Notes under the pieces: model-generated
Seen by the model: only the letters and a program-made list of their open reading frames with translations
Told to the model about the DNA's origin: nothing
The model's database searches: none
Assembly (NCBI GenBank): GCA_013042375.1
Contig: JABDQH010000116.1
Location: forward strand, 24,926-88,925
Length of the DNA stretch: 64,000 nt
From: Woeseiaceae bacterium
GTDB taxonomy: Bacteria; Pseudomonadota; Gammaproteobacteria; Steroidobacterales; Woeseiaceae
Reading direction: 5' to 3'
In this document: piece by piece, positions 19,173-52,821 of the stretch
How positions within the stretch are numbered: position 1 is the stretch's first letter
Layout: each line of letters begins with the position of its first letter
Translations under genes and position numbers: made by a program

Positions 19173-20120
19173 ATGGCGGCCAATACTGAGCTGGTCATGC
19201 ACATGATGATTGCGAACAAACGAATTCCAATGGGGCTCGCCGCGCTGCTTGCAGTAGTTCTGCTGGTCGGAGGCTGCGGTAAAGACGGTGCGTCTCCCGC
19301 CGATGGCGAGACGGCGGCAGCGCGGGACAACGTCGATGCCATGTCGCGCGAGCATGCAGACGACACGACCGACCCGAGCCCGGCTGCCTGGCTGGCCCCC
19401 AGGCGCGCAGTCGAATCGGACCCGCGCATGCCGTATGCCGAGTTGGGTGACGACCTGGTGTACGGTTACTTCGCGGCGCCGGCGGACGTCGTCGAACCCC
19501 TGCCGGCCCTGATCCTGATCCACGAGTGGTGGGGACTCAACGACAACATCCGTGCCGTGGCTGACCGGCTTGCCGGTGAGGGCTACATGGTGCTGGCTGT
19601 GGACATGTACGGCGGCAGGACTGCCAGCAATGCCAGCGAGGCCAGGCAGTTGATGCTCGAGGTGGTCGAGGAGCCCGAGCTTGCGAACGAAAATATTCGC
19701 TCTGCATACCAGTTCCTCGAGGAGGTGGCCGGTGCGCCGAAGATCGGCTCGCTCGGCTGGTGTTTCGGTGGCGGCTGGTCATTGAATACGGCGCGGCTGT
19801 TTCCCGCCGATCTCGATGCCAGCGTGATCTACTACGGGCGCGTAACGGCTGACGAAGAGATTCTGCGCCCGGTTAATGCACCGATACTTGGCCTGTTCGG
19901 CGCCGAGGACACGGGCATTCCGGTTGCCTCGGTCGAGGCTTTCGGTGATTCGCTGGAGCGCTTGCGCAAGGATTACGAAATTTACATCTACCCCGATGTC
20001 GGGCATGCGTTCGCCAATCCCTCCGGGAGGAACTACGACGAGGACGCGGCGACCGACGCGTGGAACAAGACCCTCGAATTTCTCGCGCGTCACCTGTCCG
20101 GTTCGCCGGGTTCTTCCTGA
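19173..20120 (+). CDS. Dienelactone-hydrolase-family lipoprotein
   Basis: A protein of about 315 residues with a lipoprotein signal (LLAVVLLVGGC lipobox) and an alpha/beta-hydrolase domain. The catalytic triad is visible: nucleophile Cys in GWCFGGGW (Cys, as in dienelactone hydrolases), Asp in FGAEDTGIP and His in DVGHAF. IHEWWGLND is the family N-terminal motif. Starts at 19173, 19197 and 19206 are all possible; 19206 gives the most ordinary signal peptide. The 3' end overlaps the convergent secreted-protein gene by 31 bp inside a 21-bp tandem repeat. Confidence 0.87.
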   Translation: MAANTELVMHMMIANKRIPMGLAALLAVVLLVGGCGKDGASPADGETAAARDNVDAMSREHADDTTDPSPAAWLAPRRAVESDPRMPYAELGDDLVYGYFAAPADVVEPLPALILIHEWWGLNDNIRAVADRLAGEGYMVLAVDMYGGRTASNASEARQLMLEVVEEPELANENIRSAYQFLEEVAGAPKIGSLGWCFGGGWSLNTARLFPADLDASVIYYGRVTADEEILRPVNAPILGLFGAEDTGIPVASVEAFGDSLERLRKDYEIYIYPDVGHAFANPSGRNYDEDAATDAWNKTLEFLARHLSGSPGSS

Positions 20121-20647
20121 GGTGCATCGGGTTCTTCCTGAGGTGCATCGGGCTCGCGTGCGCAGCTCAGCCTGAGTTGCAGCGGCGCGCTGGCAAAATG
20201 CAGCGACTCGACGTCGCCGTTCATACAGCGCAGCGACGCATGCGCGGTCGTGAATCCCGGTAGCAACAGCTCGTCAGACGTAGCCCTGTCCTCTGCGATG
20301 CAGAAGCCGTCGTGGGCGGCGAGTGCCAGCTGACCCGCCGCAACCTCGACCGTGGCCTCGGCGGCGCGTTTGTCCAGCAACGCATCACGCCCGATCGTCG
20401 TGAACGTGTCGGCGATGCTCAACGTAACTGACACGGGTTCCCCCTTACACTGGATTGCGGCGCGCAGGGCGAACCCGACAGCGGGCAGGTTGACGACGTC
20501 GAGGCCCGCGGCGCGGGGCGCAACCGCCACCGAGGTCTCCCTGGCGGCCACGACGATATTGTCGTCTGCCCTGGCCGGGGAAAAGATGCCCGTCGTGACT
20601 ACTATTGCCGCAATCGGCGCTAGAATAGGGAGTCTTTGCCGCCTCAT
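20090..20647 (-). CDS. Hypothetical secreted protein with duplicated acidic Pro-rich tail
   Basis: A 185-residue protein with a signal peptide ending near PARADD, then a beta-rich domain containing three Cys (QCKGE, FCIAED, RCMNGD) plus a late LSCAR. The C-terminal tail carries a heptad DAPQEEP twice, produced by a 21-bp DNA duplication. I do not recognise the family. The start at 20647 is chosen for the signal peptide; an earlier one at 20704 is possible. It lies convergent with the dienelactone hydrolase and divergent from the PGPGW gene. Confidence 0.7.
   Translation of the reverse strand: MRRQRLPILAPIAAIVVTTGIFSPARADDNIVVAARETSVAVAPRAAGLDVVNLPAVGFALRAAIQCKGEPVSVTLSIADTFTTIGRDALLDKRAAEATVEVAAGQLALAAHDGFCIAEDRATSDELLLPGFTTAHASLRCMNGDVESLHFASAPLQLRLSCAREPDAPQEEPDAPQEEPGEPDR
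20108..20149. repeat. Tandem 21-bp duplication at a convergent gene overlap
   Basis: Two exact copies of a 21-bp unit occupy 20108-20128 and 20129-20149, followed by three matching bases. The unit length is a multiple of three, so it adds seven residues in frame to the minus-strand protein. The stop codon of the plus-strand hydrolase lies in the first copy (20118-20120), so the second copy does not affect that protein. Confidence 0.95.
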
Positions 20648-20706: not shown

Positions 20707-20955
20707 ATGATCAGGCGAGCAGTACATTTCACTTACAAGGCGGCGCGGCGCATCGTTATCGGCGTCGTCGGCGCAACGGTGCTGATCATTGGCGTCATCA
20801 TGCTCGTAACGCCCGGCCCGGCGCTCGTGGTCATCCCGGTGGGCCTCGCCATTCTCAGCATCGAGTTTACGTGGGCGCGGCACTGGCTGCGTCGACTGCG
20901 CGAGTCGATCTCGAACAACAGCTTCAACAGCCGGCAAAAAAAAGGCGCCGGATGA
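20707..20955 (+). CDS. PGPGW-family small membrane protein
   Basis: An 82-residue protein of the putative transmembrane PGPGW family (PF09656). Two helices (about residues 16-35 and 38-55) flank the signature LVTPGPALVVIPVGLAIL, and a basic amphipathic tail follows. The function of the family is unknown. The ATG at 20707 is divergent from the secreted-protein gene. Its stop codon lies in the loop of the downstream hairpin. Confidence 0.85.
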   Translation: MIRRAVHFTYKAARRIVIGVVGATVLIIGVIMLVTPGPALVVIPVGLAILSIEFTWARHWLRRLRESISNNSFNSRQKKGAG

Positions 20956-20965
20956 CCGGCGCCTT
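20936..20965 (-). terminator. Hairpin with A-tract, probable terminator for the minus-strand gene
   Basis: AAGGCGCCGG at 20942-20951 pairs with CCGGCGCCTT at 20956-20965 around a 4-base loop ATGA. Eight A residues at 20936-20943 become a U-tract on the minus transcript, so it should stop transcription of the small secreted gene from 21409. The PGPGW stop codon (20953-20955) sits in the loop. The plus-strand T-tail is weak. Confidence 0.75.
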
Positions 20966-21121
20966 ATAGTTTACGGCAAGGGGGAATGCCGCCGGACCTT
21001 CCTGGTCCGTTTACGCCGGACTCCGCCCGGCGTTGTGTCCGGTGGTGTCGGCCGGGAGTTCAGGGGGGAGAGATTCCCGACCAAGCGGCCACCGGAAGGG
21101 GGTCTGTTGCGGGTACCGCCC

Positions 21122-21409
21122 TCAGGGCTGACCCGCTATCAATTGAGATCTGCGGTCTTCCAGGCGAATTTCAAGCTCCACCCAGTTCTGGCGGGCCAGC
21201 GACTGTGCCGCCCGTTGAGCGGCTTCTGCATTCGCCGCGGCCGCGATCTCGAGCGTAGCGTCGGGCACCGTGTGAATCGCGACAGCTGTCGCGTTTATTG
21301 TTGGGCTTTCCTGAGCGAAAGCGTCCCCGGCGGCCGACGACACGCCGATAAGCACGACCAGCGCCGCGAGAAGCGCGAGGCGTTCCTCGGTAATCCTGGT
21401 TTTCATCAT
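21122..21409 (-). CDS. Small secreted protein under a predicted sigma-54 promoter
   Basis: A 95-residue protein with a signal peptide (RLALLAALVVLIGVSSAAGDAFAQ) and a mature part of about 62 residues with an Ala-rich helical centre (ATLEIAAAANAEAAQRAAQ) and a charged tail. I recognise no family. The ATG at 21409 is backed by AAGGA eight bases upstream and by a -24/-12 element whose start point would fall near 21438; an in-frame start at 21442 would precede the transcript. It is divergent from the sigma-54 activator gene. 20966-21121 downstream holds no gene, only short hairpins. Confidence 0.75.
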   Translation of the reverse strand: MMKTRITEERLALLAALVVLIGVSSAAGDAFAQESPTINATAVAIHTVPDATLEIAAAANAEAAQRAAQSLARQNWVELEIRLEDRRSQLIAGQP

Positions 21410-21448
21410 CGTGTCCTTTGTAAAGAAAGTTAAAGCTGCCACAGTAAA

Positions 21449-21465
21449 TGCACAACTCGTGCCAA
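21449..21465 (-). promoter_or_regulatory. Sigma-54 (-24/-12) promoter
   Basis: The minus strand reads TTGGCACGAGTTGTGCA from 21465 to 21449. Against the RpoN consensus TTGGCACG-N4-TTGCA it differs at one base, and the invariant GG and GC dinucleotides are exactly ten bases apart. Transcription would start near 21438 and give a leader of about 29 bases before the small secreted gene. Confidence 0.8.
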
Positions 21466-21512
21466 CTTGACAAATTCATAAGAATCAACGGGTTGTGCAA
21501 TATCAGGCGATA

Positions 21513-21563
21513 ACGGAAATCCGTGAATAACGAATTATCGTAGGCGGAATTACGAAATTTCGT
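21513..21563. promoter_or_regulatory. Three 12-bp palindromic sites, candidate activator-binding sites
   Basis: ACGGAAATCCGT (21513-21524), ACGAATTATCGT (21530-21541) and ACGAAATTTCGT (21552-21563) share the pattern ACGRAWWWYCGT; the third extends to a perfect 14-bp palindrome. They lie roughly 60-110 bp upstream of the -12 element, a normal distance for enhancer binding proteins, and the last ends 13 bp before the activator's own ATG. Binding by the adjacent regulator is inference. Confidence 0.65.
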
Positions 21564-21576
21564 ATATAGTCCGCCG

Positions 21577-23376
21577 ATGATTACGCAGCAAGACTATGAA
21601 TGGCTGTTCCGGCGCCTGCCGGTGATGTCGACCCTGATCGCGGCGGACGGCGCCTGCCTCGACGTCAACGACACGATGCTCGAGCGGCTGGGCTATACGC
21701 GCGAGGACATGGTCGGGCACCGGCCCGAGGAGTTCATGACGCCCGAGTCGGCGGCGCGCGTGACGAGCGAGCTGCGCCCGGCGCTGCGGCGTCGCGGCAA
21801 ACTGGAGGACAAGTACATCAGCTTCGTCACGGCCGGTGGCGACGTCGTCGACTGCATCACCAATGCGCTCGTCGAGTACGATCGCTCGGGCGAGTTCCTG
21901 CGGACCGTGGGCATGTACATGGAGGTGTCGGACCAGGCGCGTGCCAACTTCAAGTATCGCACTCTGTATCGCTCGACCCCGGCCATGCTGCATACCGTCG
22001 ACGGTGACGGCCTGCTCGTTACCGTGACCGATCACTGGCTGGCCAAGCTCGGGTACCGACGCAAGGACGTGCTCGGCCGGCCGGTTACGGATTTCATGAG
22101 CGAGGCCGACCAGAAGAAGTACGCCGACGGACGTCTCCAGGAACTGATCGCCGCGGGCGATTTCAACAACGTCGAGCGCCAGATGGTGCGCAAGGATGGC
22201 ACAACGATCGACCTCGTCATGTCCGCTATCGCAAACCGGGACGAATCCGGCGAGGTCGACCGCATGCTGGTCGCATCCAAGGATGTGACGGAGCGCAATC
22301 GCGCGGAGCGCGAGTTACGCCGCGCGCTCGCAGAGAACGCGAAGTTGCGCAAAGAACTCGAACGCGAACGTGACTACCTGCGCGAAGAAGTCAACGTGGC
22401 GCTCAACTTCGGGCCAATTGTCGGCACTAGCACGGCGCTCAAGCGAATGCTCAAGCGTGTCGAGGCCGTGGCCGAGACGCCTGCAAGCGTCCTGCTGCTC
22501 GGCGAATCCGGCGTGGGCAAGGAACTCGTGGCGCGCGCCATCCACGCGCGCAGCCCGCGGGCCGATGGACCGCTGGTCAAGGTGAACTGCGCCTCGATAC
22601 CCAAGGAGTTGTTCGAGAGCGAGTTCTTTGGACACGTCAAGGGCGCCTTCACCGGCGCGCACCGGGATCGCGTGGGGCGGTTCCAGCTGGCCGACGGCGG
22701 CACGATCTTCCTCGACGAGGTCGGGGAGATCCCGATGGAATTACAGGGAAAGCTGCTGCGTGTCCTGCAGGAAAGCGAGTTCGAGCGCGTCGGTGATGAC
22801 GTGACCCGCTACGTCGACGTGCGCATCGTCGCGGCAACCAACCGCAATCTCGAAAAGCTCATGGTCGAGGGCAATTTCCGGGAGGACCTGTTCTACCGAC
22901 TCAGCGTGTTCCCGATCGACGTTCCGCCATTGCGGCAACGCGGCGGGGACATCGTCCAGTTGGCGCAGCACTTCCTCGAGCAGACCTGCAAGGACTTCGG
23001 CCGCGAGCCGATGACGCTGACCCGGTCGCAGGCCGCGGATCTCAAGGCCTACGACTGGCCGGGTAACGTACGCGAACTGAAGAACGTCATCGAACGCGCC
23101 GTGATCCTGTCGCCTGGCCAGGTGCTGCGCCTGGACCTGTCGATGCCGGGCGCACGGCCCGAACCGGTGATAGTCGCGTCATCCGAGCCCGTGCGGACTG
23201 ACATACTGACGGACAATGAGATGCGCGCATTCCAAAAAGGCAATATTGTAAAAGCGCTCGAGCGAGCCGCGTGGAAAGTCTCCGGCAAGGGGGGCGCGGC
23301 CGAGTTGCTCGGAGTCCGGCCGACGACGCTGGCAGACCGCATCAGGACCCACGGGATCAAGCGACCGACACGATGA
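21577..23376 (+). CDS. Sigma-54-dependent transcriptional activator with two PAS domains
   Basis: A 599-residue NtrC-type enhancer-binding protein. Two PAS sensor domains (about residues 8-115 and 125-245) replace the receiver domain, followed by a coiled linker and an AAA+ domain with Walker A GESGVGKE at 309, an intact sigma-54-contacting GAFTGA at 356-361 and Walker [11 protein letters not shown] Fis-type helix-turn-helix is at about 555-597 ([18 protein letters not shown]). The presence of PAS domains without a receiver suggests direct sensing of a ligand, redox state or light. The PBP4 gene overlaps by 4 bp; the divergent secreted gene has a sigma-54 promoter. Confidence 0.95.
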
Positions 23377-26639: not shown

Positions 26640-26674
26640 ATGCCCCGATCAGCGCTCAGCAGGGGGATAAGACA

Positions 26675-27628
26675 ATGATCTACAATAATATCCTGGAAAC
26701 AATCGGTAACACGCCCGTGGTGCGACTCAATCGCATGGGCCCCGACCATGTCGAGATGTACGTCAAGGTCGAATCGTTCAACCCGATGGCCTCGGTCAAG
26801 GACCGCCTCGCTCTGGCCATCATAAAAGACGCGACGCAAAAAGGCGCGCTGCAGCCGGGACAGACGGTCATCGAGGCGACCTCGGGCAATACCGGCATTG
26901 CTCTGGCGATGGTGTGCGCGGCGACAGGTCATCCGTTTGTCGCGACCATGGCGGACTCGTTTTCGGTCGAGCGCCGCAAGATCATGCGCGGCCTCGGTGC
27001 CAGGGTCATACTGACGCCCGCCGCCGAGCGCGGCTCGGGCATGGTCCGCAAAGCCGCAGAACTGGCCGAGGAGCATGGCTGGTTTCTTGCCCGGCAGTTC
27101 GAGAACCCGGCGAATCCCGCGTACCACCGCAGCACGACGGGCCCCGAAATCCTCATTGATTTCGCGGGGCGGCGCCTCGACTACTGGGTCACGGGATATG
27201 GAACGGGTGGGACGATGACGGGTGCCGGGCAGGTGCTCAAGGCCGCTCGCCCCGATGTCAGGATCGTTGCAACCGAACCCGAGGCGGCGAAATTGCTGGC
27301 CGGCGACGACTGGCAGCCGCACAAGATCCAGGGCTGGACGCCGGACTTCGTTCCCGACGTGCTCGATCGCGACGTGTTCGATGAACTGCGAGCGGTTTCC
27401 GACGGCCGTGCCATCGAGGTCTCACGCGAGCTCGCACACAAGGAAGGCATATTCACGGGCATCTCAGCGGGCGCGACACTCGCCACGGCGCTCGACGTCG
27501 CCGAGGATGCGCCCGAAGGGGCGGTCGTTCTCGCGATGCTTCCCGATACGGGTGAGCGTTACCTGAGCACGCCGCTGTTCGAGGGCGTGAACGAAGGATC
27601 CGACGACGAGTGGCTCGGAGGGCTCTGA
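26675..27628 (+). CDS. cysK: Cysteine synthase (O-acetylserine sulfhydrylase)
   Basis: A 317-residue PLP enzyme making L-cysteine from O-acetylserine and sulphide or thiosulphate. The PLP lysine is Lys 42 in NPMASVKDRL; the substrate loop is EATSGNTG and the phosphate cup is GTGGTMTG. The C-terminal SAGATLATAL and LPDTGERY are family-standard. It could be CysK or CysM type; the MASVKDR lysine context and overall pattern lean slightly to CysM-like thiosulphate users, so the symbol is provisional. AGGGGG precedes the ATG at 26675. Confidence 0.92.
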   Translation: MIYNNILETIGNTPVVRLNRMGPDHVEMYVKVESFNPMASVKDRLALAIIKDATQKGALQPGQTVIEATSGNTGIALAMVCAATGHPFVATMADSFSVERRKIMRGLGARVILTPAAERGSGMVRKAAELAEEHGWFLARQFENPANPAYHRSTTGPEILIDFAGRRLDYWVTGYGTGGTMTGAGQVLKAARPDVRIVATEPEAAKLLAGDDWQPHKIQGWTPDFVPDVLDRDVFDELRAVSDGRAIEVSRELAHKEGIFTGISAGATLATALDVAEDAPEGAVVLAMLPDTGERYLSTPLFEGVNEGSDDEWLGGL

Positions 27629-51981: not shown

Positions 51982-52821
51982 CTAGTCCTTGCCTGCTTCG
52001 TGCGCCATGTCGGCGAGCTCGGCGGCGCGATCGCGGGCCGCAACGACGGCTGCCGTGAAGATATCACGAAATTCCGTGCCGTCCAGATGGTCGAACGCGG
52101 CGGCGGTCGTGCCGCCCGGCGAACGCACGCGCGCGATTAGTGAGTCCATGGTTTCGCCCGACTGTTCGGCCATCTCACCGGCCCCGCGTGCCGTCTCGAG
52201 GACCAGCGTCTTCGCATCGTCGTGTCCAAGGCCGAGCTCGACCGCGACGTTAACGAGCATATCGACGAGCAGGTAGAAGTAGGCCGGGCCGGTTCCCGAC
52301 ACGGCCGTGATCGTATCGATGTCGGCTTCGCTGTTGACCCGTACGACGGGCCCGGTCGTGGCAATGATGCCGGTCGCCACGCGCCGCTGTTCGTCCGACG
52401 TGTGTTCGTTCGCATACAGGCCGGAAATGCCGAGGCGCAGCAACGCCGGCTGGTTCGGCATGATGCGCACGACTGACAGGTTGCCGCCCAGCCAGGTCTC
52501 GATGTCGCGTGCGCGAACCCCGGCCACGATCGAGATGACGAGCGGCCGCGTCGCCTGCAGCAACGGTGCCAGTGGTTTGCACACGTCGGCGAGAATTTGC
52601 GGTTTGACCGCCAGGATCACGCAATCGGCGTCGCGCACCGCGTCCTCGTTGCGTTCGAAGATCGCGGCCCCCGGCAAGTCGCGTGCGAGGCTCAGCCGAT
52701 GCCCTTCGAGTGGTTCGGACACGGAGATGAGGCTCGACTCGTAACCGGCAGCGAGCATCCCGCCCGCCAGCGCCCTCGCCATGTTGCCGCCGCCAACGTA
52801 GGTGACCCTTCCGTAATCCAT
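51982..52821 (-). CDS. proC: Pyrroline-5-carboxylate reductase
   Basis: A 279-residue enzyme of the last step in proline synthesis. It has the NADP loop YVGGGNMARALAGG, VILAVKPQ, and the C-terminal proline-binding signature VSGTGPAYFYLLVD and RSPGGTTAAAFD. The start at 52821 gives a standard N-terminus; an open extension to 52896 overlaps yggS and is rejected. It lies 7 bp after yggS. Confidence 0.96.
   Translation of the reverse strand: MDYGRVTYVGGGNMARALAGGMLAAGYESSLISVSEPLEGHRLSLARDLPGAAIFERNEDAVRDADCVILAVKPQILADVCKPLAPLLQATRPLVISIVAGVRARDIETWLGGNLSVVRIMPNQPALLRLGISGLYANEHTSDEQRRVATGIIATTGPVVRVNSEADIDTITAVSGTGPAYFYLLVDMLVNVAVELGLGHDDAKTLVLETARGAGEMAEQSGETMDSLIARVRSPGGTTAAAFDHLDGTEFRDIFTAAVVAARDRAAELADMAHEAGKD

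Follow-up and report, generated by a model that had tools for sequence, protein, structure and literature searches.

A candidate sigma-54-dependent dual-function RNA encoded opposite a PAS-PAS activator in Woeseiaceae

We analyzed a 64,000-nucleotide (nt) stretch of a Woeseiaceae genome (assembly GCA_013042375.1, contig JABDQH010000116.1, positions 24,926 to 88,925; hereafter referred to as the window), focusing on the gene of a PAS-PAS sigma-54 activator and on the divergent small open reading frame (ORF) that faces it. Comparison of 44 loci revealed a DNA switch between the two genes, made up of a promoter and palindromes, which its conservation makes as good as certain to be real. Downstream of the ORF lies a 3' module of C-rich hairpin loops, which is the most conserved part of the promoter's output and was overlooked by the first-pass annotation of this DNA. 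We propose that the locus specifies a sigma-54-dependent dual-function RNA, which would encode a microprotein and likely control G-rich messages through an anti-Shine-Dalgarno effect; on the sequence evidence, we consider this reading about evenly poised between right and wrong. The first-pass annotation had described a self-contained one-component switch for a secreted factor, of which the circuit and its conserved sites stand, whereas the output is not simply a secreted protein.

A rigidly conserved sigma-54 switch

A collection of genome contigs covering 84,980 species was searched with the activator, and the best 80 of 589 loci were used. The comparison set (n = 44) consists of the window and 43 of these loci, mostly from uncultured Woeseiaceae and other gammaproteobacterial bins and nearly all metagenome-assembled genomes, whose activators are 47-80% identical to that of the window over the best segment. 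It holds near-full-length matches of at least 56% identity (best segment), together with L044 (47%) and the truncated L061; L059 (48%) was excluded and has a sigma-54-like site and no run of five cytosines (C5). Among the other 37 of the 80 loci, all outside the set of 44, a relaxed pattern found a sigma-54-like site within 1.3 kb upstream of the activator in 18, and C5 runs occurred only in L054, L057, L058, and L069. An activator search of 16 genomes yielded ten further orthologous loci, two of which duplicate earlier ones (L285 = L022, L288 = L026), leaving eight new; the promoter, palindromes, ORF, and runs of at least five cytosines (C5+) were found in all ten, with one of the three palindromes missing by pattern from L286.

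The predicted -24/-12 promoter of the small ORF (TGGCACGAGTTGTGCA, 21464-21449, minus strand; transcription start predicted near 21438) has one mismatch to TGGCACGN4TTGCW, and three exact copies of ACGRAWWWYCGT begin at 21513, 21530, and 21552, both as first annotated. In the window, -24/-12 matches with up to two mismatches numbered 13 against 11.06 expected, so the promoter match alone is not significant, and palindrome matches with up to one mismatch on both strands numbered 13 against 5.26 expected, a modest excess. Conservation therefore had to decide. The pattern TGGCA[C/T]-N7-GC was present on the strand opposite the activator in 44 of 44 loci. The palindromes, which are the predicted activator sites UAS1 (ACGGAAATCCGT, 21513-21524), UAS2 (ACGAATTATCGT, 21530-21541), and UAS3 (ACGAAATTTCGT, 21552-21563), follow the form ACGRN4YCGT, with all 24 scored positions kept in 31 of the 44 loci and at least 22 in 43 (L044 keeps 19). 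They are rigidly spaced. In 27 of the first 28 loci tabulated, site 1 lies 48 nt from the -24 box and is followed by steps of 17 and 22 nt; over all 44 loci, the palindrome spacings are 17/22 in 28 and near variants in the remaining 16. The outer ACG and CGT are almost fixed and the centre is variable, and the pair at positions 4 and 9 is symmetric in 86 of 132 sites (64.2 expected). The divergent arrangement and its three-site array are thus conserved across the compared loci.

An IHF-like site (AATCAACGGGTTG, 21483-21495, plus strand) lies between the promoter and palindrome 1. Sites with at most one mismatch to the IHF consensus WATCAANNNNTTR were found there in 30 of the 44 loci (shuffled mean 2.48, maximum 8), at an offset of 17-18 in 27 of the 30. 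A palindrome-like repeat flanking the spacer of the window (TGCACAACYCGT) was set aside, being absent by eye from the other upstream regions printed.

We also surveyed 61 genomes of the family for the 17-nt palindrome pair and found it in 40, once per strand in 37 and twice in three, while reversed-pattern controls gave zero in 59 of the 61. Since the pair usually occurs once per genome, the circuit most likely comprises one activator and one target. Far from the locus, the window has one more exact match to ACGRAWWWYCGT, its fourth (ACGAAATTCCGT, 52066-52077); this solitary palindrome is probably due to chance. In the distant activator homologues L045, L049, and L058, other palindrome-like sequences lie upstream, accompanied by a sigma-54-like site in L049 and L058; no C5 run follows that site within 600 nt in L049. 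Both sites and targets of the activator family may have changed in such homologues.

The activator and its own start

The activator (599 residues, 21577-23376, plus strand) carries an AAA+ sigma-54 interaction domain (PF00158, E = 9e-71) with GAFTGA seen in its translation, two PAS stretches, and a weak HTH_8 match (score 19.9, under the cut-off of 22); a receiver domain is absent from the 18 Pfam families listed. The intact GAFTGA, the two PAS domains, and the missing receiver had all been noted before and are borne out by the sequence. The AAA+ domain with GAFTGA, combined with a promoter, upstream sites, and an IHF-like spacer, fits an enhancer-binding protein, probably of the one-component PAS type. 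Among the 25 of 39 NCBIfam matches listed, the activator scored below the cut-off of every equivalog model, including those for GlrR, LuxO, NtrC, NifA, and NorR (NifA, 367 against 528.85; NorR, 361.9 against 476; GlrR, 242.7 against 763; LuxO, 287.9 against 800).

We further found a predicted -10 element of the activator gene (TATAGT, 21565-21570, plus strand) that abuts palindrome 3 and lies 6 nt before the ATG. The pattern TANNNT was present 5-7 nt before an in-frame start, behind site 3, in 37 of the 44 loci (shuffled rate 0.015). No Shine-Dalgarno-like motif occurs in the 16 nt ahead of the start position used in any of the 44. A -10 element abutting site 3 and a start of this kind suggest a leaderless activator mRNA whose promoter could be blocked from site 3. 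The activator gene is therefore likely leaderless and self-repressed, which gives concrete form to the feedback on the activator that the first-pass annotation had raised as a possibility.

A small ORF under purifying selection

The small ORF (21122-21409, minus strand) encodes 95 residues, with a hydrophobic N-terminal segment that would serve as a signal or an anchor, followed by a variable tail. The predicted protein had no Pfam match above cut-off and no NCBIfam match, in line with its initial description as a member of no recognised family, and a database search returned 21 protein clusters, including that of the window itself, none with a Pfam domain. In 42 of the 44 loci, such an ORF begins 40-118 nt below the -24 box. 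Its first ~30 residues are hydrophobic and better conserved than the rest, with MKxxxxENGLALxGALVVLxGVxxAA in many Woeseiaceae. Differences at codon positions 1, 2, and 3 numbered 167, 112, and 288 in the first 30 codons and 352, 314, and 493 in the rest, summed over the 22 informative of 24 pairs tried, which overlap through shared members (two pairs gave nothing). The nonsynonymous rate (dN) was below the synonymous rate (dS) in most pairs. This third-position excess shows the small ORF to be a real coding sequence under purifying selection, and its product is probably membrane-anchored or exported. The AlphaFold model (mean pLDDT 59.7, pTM 0.28) was too poor for a function to be drawn from the fold.

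The ORF is also the more variable part of the transcript. It measures only 30-32 residues in L014, L016, L017, and L030 and 37-38 in L061 and L033, and it was not found in two of the 44 loci (L037 and L040), which keep the promoter, the palindromes, a C-loop hairpin, and the terminator. These loci, and the presence of a C5+ run in the 3' part of all 44, do not support a secreted factor as the whole output.

A conserved 3' module with C-rich loops

Downstream of the ORF on the minus strand, structure prediction for the window (20936-21121) gave a fold of -96.8 kcal/mol (z = -5.38). It comprises hairpin A (21039-21095, C6 loop at 21068-21063), hairpin X (21013-21033), hairpin Y (20993-21009), hairpin B (20974-20993, C5 loop at 20984-20980), and, last, an intrinsic terminator identified from sequence and fold (GGCGCCGG-TCAT-CCGGCGCC-T8, 20936-20963), with the C-runs of A and B placed in apical loops. 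Along with this module (21095-20974), the first-pass annotation had missed the terminator (20963-20936), the IHF-like site, and the -10-like element at 21565-21570.

The stems of the hairpins 3' of the ORF stop diverge between loci, while the loops keep CUCCCC or a longer C-run. In 43 of the 44 loci, a C5+ run occurred no more than 250 nt from the stop, compared with 159 of 2200 windows drawn at random from these loci, and a C5+ run on a stem of at least seven consecutive pairs in 36 of 44, compared with 28 of 2200 (shuffled mean 3.27, maximum 8). In L021, the sole miss of the 250-nt rule, the hairpin lies inside the reading frame with eight pairs, which brings the counts to 44 of 44 for the run and 37 of 44 for the strict stem. 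The motif CTCCCC itself was present in 36 loci, and 33 loci have at least two C5 runs in the 250 nt that follow the stop. All eight new orthologous loci likewise have C5+ runs, each with a stem of at least six pairs.

Pairing is retained although the arms of hairpin A are only ~30% identical between loci (31% and 29%). Arms from the same locus paired with a mean of -30.0 kcal/mol, compared with -19.5 kcal/mol for mixed arms, and permuted means never fell below -21.85; the own arm was the best partner in 20 of 42 loci and ranked in the top three in 32 (no hairpin A was picked for L021 or L035). In hairpin Y, compensatory changes were seen among 16 Woeseiaceae sequences: nine cells had changed on both sides (a count reached by 0 of 500 shuffles), spread over three pairs (reached by 18 of 500). 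When hairpins Y and B were built into a covariance model (R1), it matched 28 of the 61 family genomes, including 25 of 27 in the window's genus; 24 of the 28 matched loci also carry the promoter and palindrome pair, and six were already in the locus set. On these results, a conserved structured RNA in the 3' part of the transcript is very likely. Rfam gave only weak sub-threshold matches in the window and none at gathering score in the 13 loci scanned. The AGGA-like loop of hairpin Y, seen in many loci, was considered as a CsrA/GGA site and rejected on account of L005, L015, L024, and L028, where it is missing.

Candidate targets with G-rich leaders

Exact GGGGGAG-N2-9-ATG sites numbered 10, 20, 10, and 8 in four genomes, against 5, 7, 8, and 3 in controls. 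In 37 of 48 loci around GGGGGAG sites, the ATG begins an ORF of 60 residues or more. Recurrence between genomes was limited to a TonB-receptor group and a symporter pair, and an MFS-type pair recurred within one genome; these gene names are our own assignments, presumed from the sequences. The symporter-like pair (L138 in G027 and L158 in G033, 72% identical) has GGGGGAG before the ATG in both members.

One TonB-receptor gene, at G000:C94, has the leader GGAGGGGGAGACATG. In a comparison of leaders of related TonB-receptor sequences, for which the query was itself selected for a G5 leader, L173 has G4 and L169 has an ambiguous start. A run of five G (G5) was found within 20 nt of the best start in 26 of 71 TonB-receptor genes from three genomes, compared with 2 of 161 other genes (Fisher, P = 2e-13); six of 77 receptor genes were dropped for want of a usable start, and the background came from the window and loci L004-L030 rather than from all three receptor genomes. 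It is plausible from these sequences that TonB-receptor G-rich leaders are partners of the C-rich loops. G5 at TonB-receptor ribosome-binding sites (L177-L253, L254-L283) is also a family-wide leader habit, which may have a separate explanation. Within the window, the gene starting at 26675, which we take to be cysteine-synthase-like, has G5 at its ribosome-binding site (CAGGGGGATAAGACAATG, 26655-26675), the sole case among 44 window genes tested, and is a possible partner of the loops.

Proposed mechanism and alternative explanations

In the mechanism we propose, the PAS-PAS activator would bind the three conserved palindromes, likely aided by an IHF-bent spacer, and switch on the one divergent -24/-12 promoter, while its occupancy of site 3 would repress its own leaderless promoter. 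The transcript, predicted at ~500 nt, would encode the small, probably membrane-anchored or exported protein, and its 3' module would work in trans, whether as part of the intact mRNA or once cut from it, possibly as a fragment of ~190 nt. Exposed C-rich loops could then block G-rich ribosome-binding sites, with G5 messages, some TonB-receptor genes among them, as putative targets. Such an anti-Shine-Dalgarno action is plausible by analogy with known RNAs. In its fullest form, the proposal is of an undescribed, deeply conserved sigma-54 dual-function RNA family, in which a PAS-PAS activator, self-limited at a leaderless promoter, governs a single transcript that yields both a membrane microprotein and kissing C-rich loops that silence mRNAs with G-rich leaders such as those of TonB receptors; we put this version forward tentatively and regard it as somewhat doubtful.

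Several observations weigh against the dual-function reading. At the DNA level, the two central palindrome pairs show no symmetry above expectation in the 132 sites. At the RNA level, hairpin A was picked per locus by eye, after the sequences had been viewed; the paired columns of hairpin B are nearly invariant; and the count of further pair types in the 16 Woeseiaceae sequences was not above shuffles. Seven of the 44 loci have no C5 loop on seven consecutive pairs, the clearest hairpin of L035 has only a C4 loop, and the arms of L061 pair poorly, with 36 of 41 other partners better. As to targets, exact GGGGGAG-N2-9-ATG was rejected as a target list, its sites in the four genomes being few (counts and controls above). 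In genus g5, where no activator was found at E <= 1e-150 in six of six genomes searched, nine of 30 TonB-receptor genes examined, several of them orthologues of one another, have G5 ribosome-binding sites (50 were found). The genome-wide excess of GGGGGN4-13ATG over control there (122 to 61, 138 to 77, and 129 to 54) is no smaller than that of the window's genus (211 to 105, 303 to 197, and 230 to 132). G-rich leaders thus occur independently of the module, perhaps simply as a way of enhancing translation, and the TonB-receptor link is weakened as proof of targeting.

One alternative, which refines the view of the first-pass annotation, takes the small protein to be the output: an exported or membrane microprotein under sigma-54 control, with hairpins that only stabilise its mRNA or end transcription. 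An AAGGA-like ribosome-binding site often precedes the ORF (by eye), purifying selection is visible even at 30 codons (3, 5, and 16 differences by codon position between L016 and L017), and the 21 protein clusters, none with a Pfam domain, fit a microprotein output as well. What makes this explanation unlikely in our judgment is the retention of promoter, sites, C-loop hairpin, and terminator in L037 and L040, where no ORF was found, together with a tail that ranges from none to ~75 residues and stems that diverge while the C-run stays, which mere stability would not need.

The C-rich loops might instead act in cis, or bind a protein (a chaperone, a ribonuclease guard, or a ribosomal or cold-shock protein) rather than other mRNAs. 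The two or more C5 runs of 33 loci could be a repeated protein site, C-loop hairpins could act in cis, a further point to be held against the dual-function reading, and the target enrichment is not specific to module-bearing genomes. We nevertheless think this improbable: the window's own small ORF has a ribosome-binding site that is not G5, and known RNAs that share this loop, UCCCCCU in sX13 loop 3 and in HPnc5490, target mRNAs at G-rich motifs (PMC3771888). A compositional accident, in which C-runs and hairpins are simply what GC-rich intergenic DNA yields, is scarcely credible: dinucleotide shuffles of the 44 regions do retain a C5 run in 26.1 of them on average, but the excess of long stems, the own-arm pairing, and the runs with stems in all eight new loci reported above speak against it.

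If the dual-function reading holds, these bacteria would possess a regulatory RNA served by an activator of its own, and a sigma-54-controlled RNA, a microprotein mRNA, and C-rich anti-Shine-Dalgarno loops would be joined in one rigidly conserved locus. In the fullest form of the proposal, one sensory input would rewire nutrient uptake at the envelope via mRNAs such as those of TonB receptors. The model is directly testable by loop mutations. The case also illustrates that finding a small ORF can mask a conserved RNA in the 3' part of the same transcript, where stem sequence is unconserved and C-runs and pairing are revealing.

Comparison with known systems

RepG of Helicobacter pylori is the RNA also named HPnc5490. 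The closest likeness of the 3' module is to C-rich-loop RNAs of this kind. In Xanthomonas, sX13 adjoins polA, forms three stable stems with apical C-rich loops, and represses mRNAs with G-rich motifs near translation starts; UCCCCCU occurs both in its third loop and in that of HPnc5490, and G-rich mRNA motifs are targeted (PMC3771888). RepG targets a G-repeat in a leader (PMC8295292). The predicted stems with exposed C-rich apical loops found here (36 of 44 loci by the strict rule, 37 with L021) resemble those RNAs. Unlike sX13, the transcript proposed here is predicted to be under sigma-54 and activator control and to carry a small ORF in front, and no Rfam family reached its gathering score in the 13 loci.

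Among sigma-54 systems, GlmY is controlled through three upstream sites and IHF, and the Qrr RNAs are sigma-54-dependent and switched on by LuxO at upstream sites. SR1/SR1P of Bacillus subtilis is a dual-function RNA that joins a small ORF and a regulatory RNA part in one transcript; it belongs to another phylum and has a different ORF and RNA, and for the RNA described here action in trans is only proposed. GlmY is a sigma-54-dependent regulatory RNA switched on by QseF/GlrR (PMC6075780). In both GlmY-QseF/GlrR and Qrr-LuxO, the activators are response regulators, whereas the present one has PAS domains and no receiver; it also falls far under the GlrR and LuxO cut-offs, and no Rfam match at threshold, in the window or the 13 loci scanned, links the locus to either RNA. 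GlnZ, a small RNA from the 3' untranslated region of the sigma-54/NtrC-driven glnA mRNA, has an RpoN-dependent parent (PMC9731577), and the present locus would similarly place a candidate regulatory RNA in the 3' part of a predicted RpoN-dependent mRNA. The parent of GlnZ encodes glutamine synthetase under the two-component regulator NtrC, whereas here it would encode a microprotein under a divergent PAS-PAS activator. No description of this RNA or of the combination turned up in literature searches, of which the longer result sets were covered in part.

dacB and neighboring genes

In the window, the dacB ATG at 23373 overlaps the TGA of the activator gene, and the product is Peptidase_S13 by Pfam. 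This overlap agrees with the translational coupling that the first-pass annotation had claimed, although it is not conserved: dacB lies downstream of the activator in 35 of the 43 relatives and is 600-900 nt away in 13 of these 35 (counts that exclude L030, where the activator frame is interrupted and dacB is present, and L042, where dacB is ~3 kb away). Because the spacing is variable, translational coupling is not a conserved feature, and we did not retain dacB as part of the unit; the suggested link to wall remodelling is correspondingly weak. In several close relatives (among L004-L012), a gap of ~700 nt between the activator and dacB probably holds an extra gene.

On the other side of the locus, a membrane gene of the PGPGW family (20707-20955) converges on the small ORF and occupies the same place in many relatives. 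Beyond it, a minus-strand gene for a probably exported protein of no known family (20090-20646) recurs, by eye, in many relatives.

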